DNA of 33,482 nucleotides from Sulfuricurvum sp. (lineage in GTDB: Bacteria > Campylobacterota > Campylobacteria > Campylobacterales > Sulfurimonadaceae). The stretch covers positions 1 through 33,482 of the forward strand of contig DZBD01000011.1 in NCBI GenBank assembly GCA_022729795.1. The letters run 5' to 3'. Each line of letters begins with the position of its first letter. The stretch's first letter is position 1. The notes beneath the pieces are model-generated. The model worked only from the letters and a program-made list of their open reading frames with translations. It was not told the DNA's origin and made no database searches. Shown here one piece after another: positions 12,626 through 20,834 of this stretch. A program made the translations under genes and the position numbers.

Positions 12626-12656
12626 ATTATAGTATTCTTGGCATGTGGAAGTTCAA
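12626..12656 (-). promoter_or_regulatory. Putative sigma70-type promoter of radA
   Basis: On minus strand TTGAAC-19 nt-TATAAT; spacer slightly long and contains a CCACATGCC copy. Confidence 0.4.
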
Positions 12657-14204: not shown

Positions 14205-14786
14205 ATGTCCCTTACAAAAACTGTATTTAGAAAAAAATGTCTTCAAAAAATAAAAAATATGCCAAAACACAATATGTTCTATCGCAATAGTATTTTAAAT
14301 AGACGTTTGCAACAAGAACTCAAAATAATAAGAAATAAAAAAATCTTATTTTATTATCCTTTGCCGTTTGAAGCTGACCTGAAAAAAACTCTTTTTAAAA
14401 TGCGTAAAAAATGTGATATTTACGTGCCGTTTATGCAAGGAAAAAGTTTTAAGATGGTACCATTCAGGCTACCGCTTAAACAAAATGAATTTGGTATTTT
14501 TGAAGCGGGAAATACGATAAAAAATATAAAAAATATTGATGTAGCTATAGTGCCTGCGGTTGGTGTAGACGGGAATTTACAAAGAGTCGGTTTTGGAAAA
14601 GGGATGTATGACCGTTTCTTTGCAAAATTTAAAAAGAGACCATATACTATTTTTATACAACCGGAAATTTGTTTTACTAAAAAATTTATTTGTGATAATT
14701 ATGATGTCGCATGTGATTTACTACTGACACCAAGGGCAAAAATTTTACCCGTAGCTAGAGTCAAACAGAGGAAATACAGATGTTAA
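14205..14786 (+). CDS. 5-formyltetrahydrofolate cyclo-ligase family protein
   Basis: FYYPLPFEADL, VPAVGVDGNLQRVGFGKGMYDRFF motifs. Confidence 0.88.
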   Translation: MSLTKTVFRKKCLQKIKNMPKHNMFYRNSILNRRLQQELKIIRNKKILFYYPLPFEADLKKTLFKMRKKCDIYVPFMQGKSFKMVPFRLPLKQNEFGIFEAGNTIKNIKNIDVAIVPAVGVDGNLQRVGFGKGMYDRFFAKFKKRPYTIFIQPEICFTKKFICDNYDVACDLLLTPRAKILPVARVKQRKYRC

Positions 14787-16348
14787 ATGAGATATTGCTA
14801 GGCGGTGGCATTGCTACCTTTAGTGGAATTGCAGGATTTTTCATCTCTAAAAAAATTACTAGTGCCAATTTTGATATTTACACGCAACAGGCAAAAGCAA
14901 AAGCGAATGCTATCGAAAGTGAAGCTGAAATGCTTTTACAAAAATCGAATCTAAAGTCTCAAGAGATTGAATTAGAAGCTATTAAGCACTATGAAAGTGC
15001 AAAAGACAGAGCCAAAGCAGATCTCTCTCAAAGAGAAGACGATGTAATACGAAAAGAGCAGAGTTTTAAAAGATACAAACAGATTGAAGATCAACGGATT
15101 CAGGATGAAAGTACCGCTCTGCAAGCAAAAAGAAATGATTTAGAGAGAAATGAAAAATCGCTCAATACACTCAAAAAAAGATATGAAGCCAAGATAGATG
15201 AAGCACTCCATACTATTGAACATAGTGCAGGGATGACAAAGGATGAAGCGCAAGTTGTTTTACTTGAAAAAGTAGAAGAAAAATCTCGTGCGGAGATAGC
15301 TCATATTGTTCGAAGATACGAAAATGAAGCAAAACAGGATGCCAAAAGAAAGGCAAACTATATACTCGCACAAGCTACAAGCCGGTTTGCGGGAGAATTT
15401 GCATCGGAGCGTTTGACTAATTTGGTTCATCTTGAGAATGATGAACTTAAAGGTCGAATTATCGGTAAAGAGGGGAGAAATATTAAAGCGCTTGAGACGC
15501 TTATGGGTGTCGATATAATAATAGACGATACGCCAAACGCTATTATTGTAAGCAGTTTTAATCTTTATCGTCGTGCCATTGCTACAAAAACATTGCAGCT
15601 TTTGATAGAAGACGGAAGAATCCAGCCGGCGAGAATAGAAGAAATTTTTGAGAAAGTTTCCGATGAATTTGAAGCGTCTATCCTTACCGAAGGGGAAGAA
15701 CTTATTGCCGATATGAATATCGGTGTGATGCATCCCGAACTCACAAAGCTCATAGGAAGACTAAGATACCGTGCAAGCTATGGACAAAATGCACTTGCTC
15801 ATACTCTTGAAGTGTCGTACTTAGCCGGAATTATGGCTTCTGAAATGGGGGGAGACCCTATTTTAGCAAAACGTGCCGGATTATTGCACGATATCGGAAA
15901 ATCTTTGACTCATGATCATGACGGAAGTCATGTGGATTTGGGCGCAGAGATTTGTAACCGTTATAATGAACATAGCGTTGTTATTAATGCAATTTATGCG
16001 CATCACGGGCAAGAAGAGATAAATTCCATAGAGTGTGGAGCCGTATGTGCCGCAGATGCACTCTCTGCCGCAAGACCGGGTGCAAGACGTGAAGTTCTTG
16101 AGAGTTTCTTAAAGCGTGTGACGCAGATAGAAGATATAGCTTCCGAACATACGGGAGTAAAACAGGCGTATGCAATTAACGCAGGACGTGAAATACGTGT
16201 TATAGTCAATGCTACTTTGATAAATGATGATGAGTCCGTTTTATTGGCAAAAGAGATTGCAAAAGAGATAGAATCAAAAGTTCAGTATCCGGGTGATATC
16301 AAAGTAAATGTTATTCGCGAGAGTAGAACTGTAGAGTTTGCAAGATAG
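14780..16348 (+). CDS. rny: Ribonuclease Y
   Basis: N-terminal TM, coiled coil, KH domain (GRIIGKEGRNIKALE), HD domain (GLLHDIGKSLTHDHDGSHVDLG). Confidence 0.97.
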   Translation: MLNEILLGGGIATFSGIAGFFISKKITSANFDIYTQQAKAKANAIESEAEMLLQKSNLKSQEIELEAIKHYESAKDRAKADLSQREDDVIRKEQSFKRYKQIEDQRIQDESTALQAKRNDLERNEKSLNTLKKRYEAKIDEALHTIEHSAGMTKDEAQVVLLEKVEEKSRAEIAHIVRRYENEAKQDAKRKANYILAQATSRFAGEFASERLTNLVHLENDELKGRIIGKEGRNIKALETLMGVDIIIDDTPNAIIVSSFNLYRRAIATKTLQLLIEDGRIQPARIEEIFEKVSDEFEASILTEGEELIADMNIGVMHPELTKLIGRLRYRASYGQNALAHTLEVSYLAGIMASEMGGDPILAKRAGLLHDIGKSLTHDHDGSHVDLGAEICNRYNEHSVVINAIYAHHGQEEINSIECGAVCAADALSAARPGARREVLESFLKRVTQIEDIASEHTGVKQAYAINAGREIRVIVNATLINDDESVLLAKEIAKEIESKVQYPGDIKVNVIRESRTVEFAR

Positions 16349-16376: not shown

Positions 16377-16406
16377 CTTGGCATGTGGAAATTTCCACAT
16401 GCCAAG
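16377..16406. terminator. Perfect 30-bp palindrome made of two inverted CCACATGCC words between convergent genes; putative bidirectional terminator
   Basis: cttggcatgtggaaa|tttccacatgccaag, 15 bp arms, between the rny stop (16348) and the convergent CDF stop (16413). Confidence 0.75.
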
Positions 16407-16412
16407 GTAAAA

Positions 16413-17309
16413 CTAGAAATACATATTTTCCGCTTCATTAATTTGAGAATCATCGTATGGATCCATGTGAATCATAATATGTGTTCTCTTGTCTGCAAAA
16501 AGATTTCTTAACTTATCTTCAACCCTGTCAGAGGCGATATGTGCTGCATATAACGAGATATGCATGTTGTACACAAGATGGACATCGATAAAAACATGGG
16601 AACCAGACTCTCTTGTCTTTAAATCATGATAATCGGTAATAACAGCTTCATTTTCAATAAGCTCTTTAATTTTTTGTATATCTTCTTCGGGTATTGCAGC
16701 ATCAAGAAGCATCATGATACCCTCTTTGATAATCGGATATGCGGAATAAATCATATACATTGCAATTGCAATACCCAAAATAGGATCTATTAACTGCTCT
16801 TGCGTATACGCTATCAGTCCAAGTGCCAAAAGAACGGCACCGTTTGAGAAAAGGTCTGTTTTATAGTGAAGCGCATCTGCTCGAATTACCATATTTTTTG
16901 TTTTTTTTGCAACATAGTTTAAAAAAAGAACTAAAGCAAAAGTTATAACTAAAGAGGCAATCATAACATAGACGCTCTCTTGAATATGTTGTGTGGGTCT
17001 GTTATGTGTAATTTTAGCAAGAGCTTCAAATAATATAAAAACAGCAGAAAGAGAGATAATTGTCCCTTCTATTACAGCTGCCAAAGGTTCTATCTTGCTT
17101 CTTCCGAAGTGAAATTTGTCATCGGGATCTTTTTCCGTATTATGGAGTGCAAAATAGTTAAAAAGGGAAACCGTAAGGTCTAAAAAAGAATCTATTGCCG
17201 ATGCCAAAACAGCAATAGAACCACTCACAAGCCCGATAGTCATTTTCATTATTACAAGTAATCCGGCTACGGACATGGAAACAACTGTTGCTTTTTTCTC
17301 TAATCTCAT
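16413..17309 (-). CDS. Cation diffusion facilitator transporter
   Basis: SAIDSFLDLTVSLFNYFAL, FHFGRSKIEPLAA, HYKTDLFSNGAV motifs; multiple TM. Confidence 0.94.
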   Translation of the reverse strand: MRLEKKATVVSMSVAGLLVIMKMTIGLVSGSIAVLASAIDSFLDLTVSLFNYFALHNTEKDPDDKFHFGRSKIEPLAAVIEGTIISLSAVFILFEALAKITHNRPTQHIQESVYVMIASLVITFALVLFLNYVAKKTKNMVIRADALHYKTDLFSNGAVLLALGLIAYTQEQLIDPILGIAIAMYMIYSAYPIIKEGIMMLLDAAIPEEDIQKIKELIENEAVITDYHDLKTRESGSHVFIDVHLVYNMHISLYAAHIASDRVEDKLRNLFADKRTHIMIHMDPYDDSQINEAENMYF

Positions 17310-20018: not shown

Positions 20019-20834
20019 ATGAATTTTTATAAAGAATTAGAGCTAATTTTAGAAGCTGAAAATCCACATGCCAAGATAAATTTGTTTTATACTTTCTATG
20101 CTGCTTATAAATCAAGGCATGTGGAATTTGAAGAAAATTATAAAGTAAAAGAGTTTGTGCTGCCCTCTTATAATTCCACATGCCAAGTGGTTTCTCCGCA
20201 AAATGTTCCCAAGCGAAGCAATCTTACTACAAAAGAGGGGCAGATAACTCTGCTTCACGCCATAGCACATATAGAATATTCGGCAATTGATTTGGCTTTG
20301 GACGGGGCATATAGGTTTGCGGGTTTGCCCAAACAATATTATACCGATTGGCTTGAAGTGGCAGAGGATGAGATACGTCACTTTTTGTCGCTAGAAAAAC
20401 TGCTCCATGAACTCGGGGCAAAGTACGGTGACTTAGTCGTGCATAATGCTCTGTTTGAAGCAAGCCAAAGAACGCAGACGCTGTTAGAGAGAATGGCGGT
20501 TGTCCCAAGATATCTTGAAGCTAACGGACTCGATGCAACACCGATGATACTTGAAAAACTTGAAAAACTTCCAAAAACACAGATAATAGAGAAGATAATA
20601 GCAACGCTCAGGATTATATTGGATGAAGAAACAGACCATGTCAAAAAAGGGGATGTTTGGTTTCAACGGGCATGTGTAATGGAAAATAAAAAGAGTGATG
20701 TTTATTTTGACATCATTAACAAATACTATCCTCAAGGTTTTTTAAGAGCAAAAAATCTTAATATTGATGCTCGCAAAGAAGCAGGGTTTAGTTGTAAAGA
20801 GCTTAACTTTATGGCGAAAAAAGAAGTTTGCTGA
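20019..20834 (+). CDS. DUF455 family ferritin-like protein
   Basis: LLHAIAHIEYSAIDLALDGAYRF, VAEDEIRHFLSLEKLL, DEETDHVKKG conserved metal ligands. Confidence 0.9.
   Translation: MNFYKELELILEAENPHAKINLFYTFYAAYKSRHVEFEENYKVKEFVLPSYNSTCQVVSPQNVPKRSNLTTKEGQITLLHAIAHIEYSAIDLALDGAYRFAGLPKQYYTDWLEVAEDEIRHFLSLEKLLHELGAKYGDLVVHNALFEASQRTQTLLERMAVVPRYLEANGLDATPMILEKLEKLPKTQIIEKIIATLRIILDEETDHVKKGDVWFQRACVMENKKSDVYFDIINKYYPQGFLRAKNLNIDARKEAGFSCKELNFMAKKEVC

Follow-up and report, generated by a model that had tools for sequence, protein, structure and literature searches.

Close inverted pairs of the dispersed word CCACATGCC are concentrated behind stop codons in a Sulfurimonas genome, above all between convergent genes, and the best explanation (probability about 0.6) is that these uptake-signal-like word pairs are kept as hairpins at the 3' ends of genes, probably working through Rho termination and trimming or as tail-less terminators rather than as classic ones. 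The example from which the analysis starts is a palindrome of two such words lying between the gene for ribonuclease Y (rny) and that for a cation-efflux transporter, within a window (the whole stretch of DNA that was analyzed) of 33,482 nucleotides. Its source is a Sulfurimonas MAG of 2.25 Mb in 140 contigs that is 92% complete.

The original prediction described a perfect 30-bp inverted word pair placed in a 64-bp gap between convergent rny and CDF transporter genes, and both parts of this description stand (Table 1): the palindrome is exact, its arms (16377-16391 and 16392-16406) being 100% complementary with a spacer of 0, and the gene coordinates and Pfam domains confirm the size of the gap and the convergence of its neighbors. 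By chance, a perfect zero-loop palindrome of 30 bp is expected only ~0.0001 times per window of the same size and composition. The two words are ordered GGCATGTGG...CCACATGCC (termed type A), with the 9-mers 6 nt apart, and the palindrome is off-centre in the gap, 28 nt past the rny stop and 6 nt from the stop of the efflux gene. On either strand its RNA is predicted to fold into a hairpin with a 13-14 bp stem, a 4-nt loop and an energy of about -23.5 kcal/mol, and no shuffled version of this RNA gave an equally stable fold. The center had been expected to be partly unpaired over AAAUUU, and an unpaired center does exist in the predicted fold, but with such a stem and loop it is restricted to AAUU. 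The hairpin is followed on its 3' side by GUAAAACUAG on the + strand and by AAAUAUUCUU on the - strand, and an Rfam search of the window gave zero matches at the gathering score.

Table 1. Positions in the window of the palindrome, its flanking genes and other copies of the word.
Feature	Position	Strand	Basis or remark
rny, ribonuclease Y	14780..16348	+	PF12072 (RNase_Y_N), PF00013 (KH), PF01966 (HD)
Palindrome CTTGGCATGTGGAAATTTCCACATGCCAAG	16377..16406	no strand	Two inverted extended words, zero spacer, type A
Word CCACATGCC, left arm of palindrome	16380..16388	-	Word search
Word CCACATGCC, right arm of palindrome	16395..16403	+	Word search
Cation diffusion facilitator (cation-efflux) transporter gene	16413..17309	-	PF01545, PF16916; convergent with rny
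Single intergenic CCACATGCC copy	12640..12648	-	Tandem gap
Three CCACATGCC copies in DUF455 gene	20064..20184	20064+, 20116-, 20176+	Word search, domain search

The word itself is found 14 times in the window, where dinucleotide shuffles give an expectation of 0.06, and 893 times in the genome (461 and 432 by strand), while the reversed control occurs 6 times. Its extended form is AnTTCCACATGCCAAG, in which the flanks are weakly conserved (AnTT before, AAG after), and these flanks are present in the genome itself (G000) and in four others (G194, G168, G167, and G180). Conservation around the word ends at ~16 nt, with none beyond, and a repeat of the REP/BIME or MITE type was ruled out, there being no conserved element longer than the word and no ends of its own. 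Occurrence in hundreds to thousands of copies on both strands and the presence of longer, weak flanks around a core are traits shared with DUS and USS sequences, and a role of CCACATGCC as an uptake sequence is plausible. The ComEC and DprA families were found in the genome and in most of the tested congeners, whether word-rich or not. Literature matches to CCACATGCC itself were unrelated as judged by title (plants, human genes, and similar), and searches pairing uptake sequences with Sulfurimonas or Campylobacterota found no paper, with Epsilonproteobacteria a general review only, and among the papers searched there was none on a dispersed word in Sulfurimonas. Within the DUF455 gene (window 20019-20834) the three copies lie within 121 bp, two of them inverted relative to the third.

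The association of the inverted pairs with gene ends, which was part of the original prediction, holds across the genome. Within a distance of 20 nt, 65 inverted CCACATGCC pairs occur in the MAG vs. about 3.7 expected by random placement, and same-orientation pairs, for which the expectation is likewise about 3.7, number 10 (binomial p = 5e-11 for 65 vs. 10), so that the excess is particular to the inverted arrangement. Gene calls were made mechanically with a home-made gene finder, by which 56 of the 65 pairs could be placed. Convergent gaps received 31 of these, tandem gaps 15, and a divergent gap one, and the other nine fall inside called genes, three of them no more than 43 nt from the 3' end. 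Of the sampled intergenic bases, 12% belong to convergent gaps, yet these gaps hold 31 of the 47 intergenic pairs (p = 3e-18). When the tandem-gap pairs of the genome are combined with those of its relatives, 29 of 30 lie 4-38 nt past the upstream stop, while the distance to the next start ranges from 18 to 272 nt. Stretches of the genome, and partly those of the relatives, were sampled around pairs, and hence the share of pairs among hairpins is inflated but the placement of the pairs is unaffected.

It was also proposed that the palindrome is a likely bidirectional terminator. What stands of this is the gene-end and convergent placement together with the strong hairpin, and what does not is the classic intrinsic type: the pair resembles a terminator by its placement but is not one of the classic kind by its sequence. 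Downstream of the arms, T is no more frequent than background for either type or over all pairs, although T-runs do lie 5-10 nt downstream of a few of the genome's pairs, and in tandem gaps there is no asymmetry between downstream and upstream tails (5.33 vs. 5.23 T, p = 0.94). At the palindrome the - strand alone scores in the terminator scan, with a weakly terminator-like T-rich tail, whereas a U-tail is absent from the + strand by both sequence inspection and the scan. In addition, type A pairs (GGCATGTGG..CCACATGCC, as at the palindrome) number 31 and type B pairs 34, so that neither orientation is favored, whereas in Neisseria it is the head-to-head bias of the pairs that supplies the A/T tails (PMC1852404). 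A classic bidirectional Rho-independent terminator, as formed by the uptake-signal pairs of Neisseria and Haemophilus, is therefore unlikely, in spite of the few tails that would suit it.

The absence of a U-tail makes it likelier that the hairpins kept at gene ends function with Rho and trimming or as tail-less terminators. The word would owe its spread in the genome to something else, most probably self-DNA recognition in transformation, and inverted pairs would then arise easily because its copies are so common. Those pairs that arose just past stop codons would be retained as 3'-end elements, where the RNA hairpin may mark or protect the end of the mRNA or aid polymerase release, and would do so in both directions where genes converge. 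The end itself could be generated by Rho termination, after which an exonuclease would trim the RNA as far as the stem, or by a hairpin terminator that has no tail. An RNA-level function, the mechanism behind it, and a role of the word in uptake are all inferred from sequence; a rho gene is present.

Such hairpins extend beyond the word. Among 125 gene ends sampled from the genome itself, in stretches selected for their pairs, 57 carry a hairpin, compared to 5 after shuffling and 12 of 163 positions before starts, and hairpins made of other sequences occupy the same place in the genus. In larger samples these other gene-end hairpins are equally devoid of U-tails (T fraction 0.33-0.39), and the word pairs thus follow the habit of the genome. 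Strong hairpins that lack U-rich tails were observed behind many stop codons in Sulfurimonas, and termination of the classic intrinsic type may thus be infrequent there.

Comparison of the gap with those of relatives, which the original prediction had put forward as a check, also favors an element of the gene end. The relatives whose rny is 84-88% identical are Sulfurimonas. In three of the ten congeners that are rich in the word, an inverted pair is found behind rny, with the same layout as in the window in two (G194 and G168) and the opposite layout in the third (G161). In these three the pair starts 10-15 nt past the rny stop, and rny is followed, 206-329 bp away, by a gene other than the efflux gene. 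Since the pair persists in front of different and distant genes, the hairpin follows the end of rny and not the convergent partner. Several species that lack the word have unrelated hairpins behind rny, but three genomes (G167, G183, and G036) have no clear hairpin there, and so this feature is not universal. Variant words are found at the rny end of related species, for example, GGCATGTGAAAGTTCTACATGCC in G185, and such variants (GGCATGTGAAAGTTCTACATGCC; CATGGCATGTGATTTTTTACATGCCATG) form the hairpins noted at the rny 3' ends of three stretches, L210 (G185), L203 (G186), and L215 (G035), which suggests that further variants of the word exist. A search of 228 genomes of the family revealed ten congeners with 411-1,427 copies of CCACATGCC and a few with 50-226, with the others at about background. 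In the rny tree, which is based on a single gene and has a weak backbone, the species rich in the word are spread over more than one clade.

A still less likely explanation is that the pairs are a by-product with no function at the 3' end, whereby biased uptake piles up words in harmless places and template-switch correction perfects neighboring copies. This would account for the near-perfect palindromes in both layouts and for the minimal spacers of many pairs (2 nt in type B), which are poor as RNA loops. It would also fit the limited covariation outside the word. Position +3 outside the 9-mer pairs above chance in type A and type B alike (p = 0.011 for each), but positions +4 to +9 have no excess complementarity in either type, and covariation beyond the word is accordingly small and the evidence for selection on pairing is modest. 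However, in data pooled with the relatives, 48 of 79 pairs but only seven of 42 single words are in convergent gaps (Fisher p = 3e-6), and in tandem gaps the pairs crowd the upstream stop (KS p = 4e-9) much more than single words do (mean relative position 0.20 vs. 0.39), and therefore the placement of pairs is not merely the landing pattern of words. Moreover, pairs recur at the end of rny in several species and in different layouts. The least probable alternative is a DNA-level dyad serving as a protein site (for the nucleoid, a barrier to replication-transcription conflict, or the uptake machinery) rather than as an RNA element, since, although perfect zero-loop palindromes and a location between convergent genes would suit a barrier, the two layouts are about equally frequent, their half-site order and spacing differ and their spacers span 0-20 nt, a variability that is seldom compatible with a dimeric DNA-binding protein, and the tandem pairs adjoin stop codons and not promoters.

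Other dispersed words occur in the genus. A different one, (Y)TACATGTA, was seen in roughly 18 Sulfurimonas genomes (including G011, G032, G144, G146, G157, and G006), with 400-1,260 matches to YTACATGTA per genome, a count in which the strands are summed and matches that overlap on both strands are counted twice. None of the genomes rich in this word is also rich in CCACATGCC, and in sampled stretches it is almost wholly intragenic and without gene-end pairing. The idea that the TACATGTA of G011 and G032 is a dialect of the CCACATGCC system was dropped, as nearly all copies are intragenic and the sampled stretches contain no gene-end pairs of it. An unrelated short repeat, TCGCAATGAC, is present in stretches L171-L175 of another genome (G162), with 11 copies in 81 kb vs. 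0.1 expected.

The Campylobacterota, to which Sulfurimonas belongs, include Campylobacter and Helicobacter. Uptake sequences have been described for two families, the Pasteurellaceae and Neisseriaceae (PMC5031613, PMC3630211). We tentatively propose, at somewhat less than even odds, that Sulfurimonas may have an uptake-signal system of its own with species dialects and may independently have made tail-less gene-end hairpins from inverted signal pairs, which would be a third origin with a different mechanism of termination or of 3'-end formation. If true, this third and unrelated case would open the question of what drives such words, would allow the origin of word dialects between species of one genus to be addressed, and would bear on whether such words generally come to be reused as gene-end hairpins. 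Because it lacks a U-tail, the hairpin is set apart from classic termination and hence provides a test of what such hairpins are selected for.

That uptake signals occur as inverted pairs at gene ends is established for Neisseria and for the Pasteurellaceae (PMC1852404, PMC3630211, PMC2397512). Like the pairs of the Neisseria DUS (GCCGTCTGAA), those of Sulfurimonas consist of an abundant dispersed word, are in excess when inverted and rare in the same orientation, and are enriched in tail-to-tail regions (PMC1852404, PMC3630211), but the word and the phylum are unrelated, and there are no U/A tails and no orientation bias. The pairs of the Pasteurellaceae USS (AAGTGCGGT) share the inverted excess, the same-orientation rarity, and the tail-to-tail enrichment, and the USS is likewise a 9-mer core in a longer weak motif, present about 1,000 times per genome (PMC1852404); the Sulfurimonas word differs, however, and its extended motif puts no T-runs behind the hairpin. 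Thus, of the traits of uptake-pair terminators, the Sulfurimonas pairs display the inverted excess and the convergent enrichment but neither direction-matched tails nor an orientation bias, and for this reason they are not assigned to the intrinsic-terminator class, even though their placement is alike. In Sulfurimonas the uptake role is predicted from sequence, and the TACATGTA word may be of another kind, unlike the eight DUS dialects of the Neisseriaceae (PMC3630211), but in both groups related species carry related yet different enriched words.
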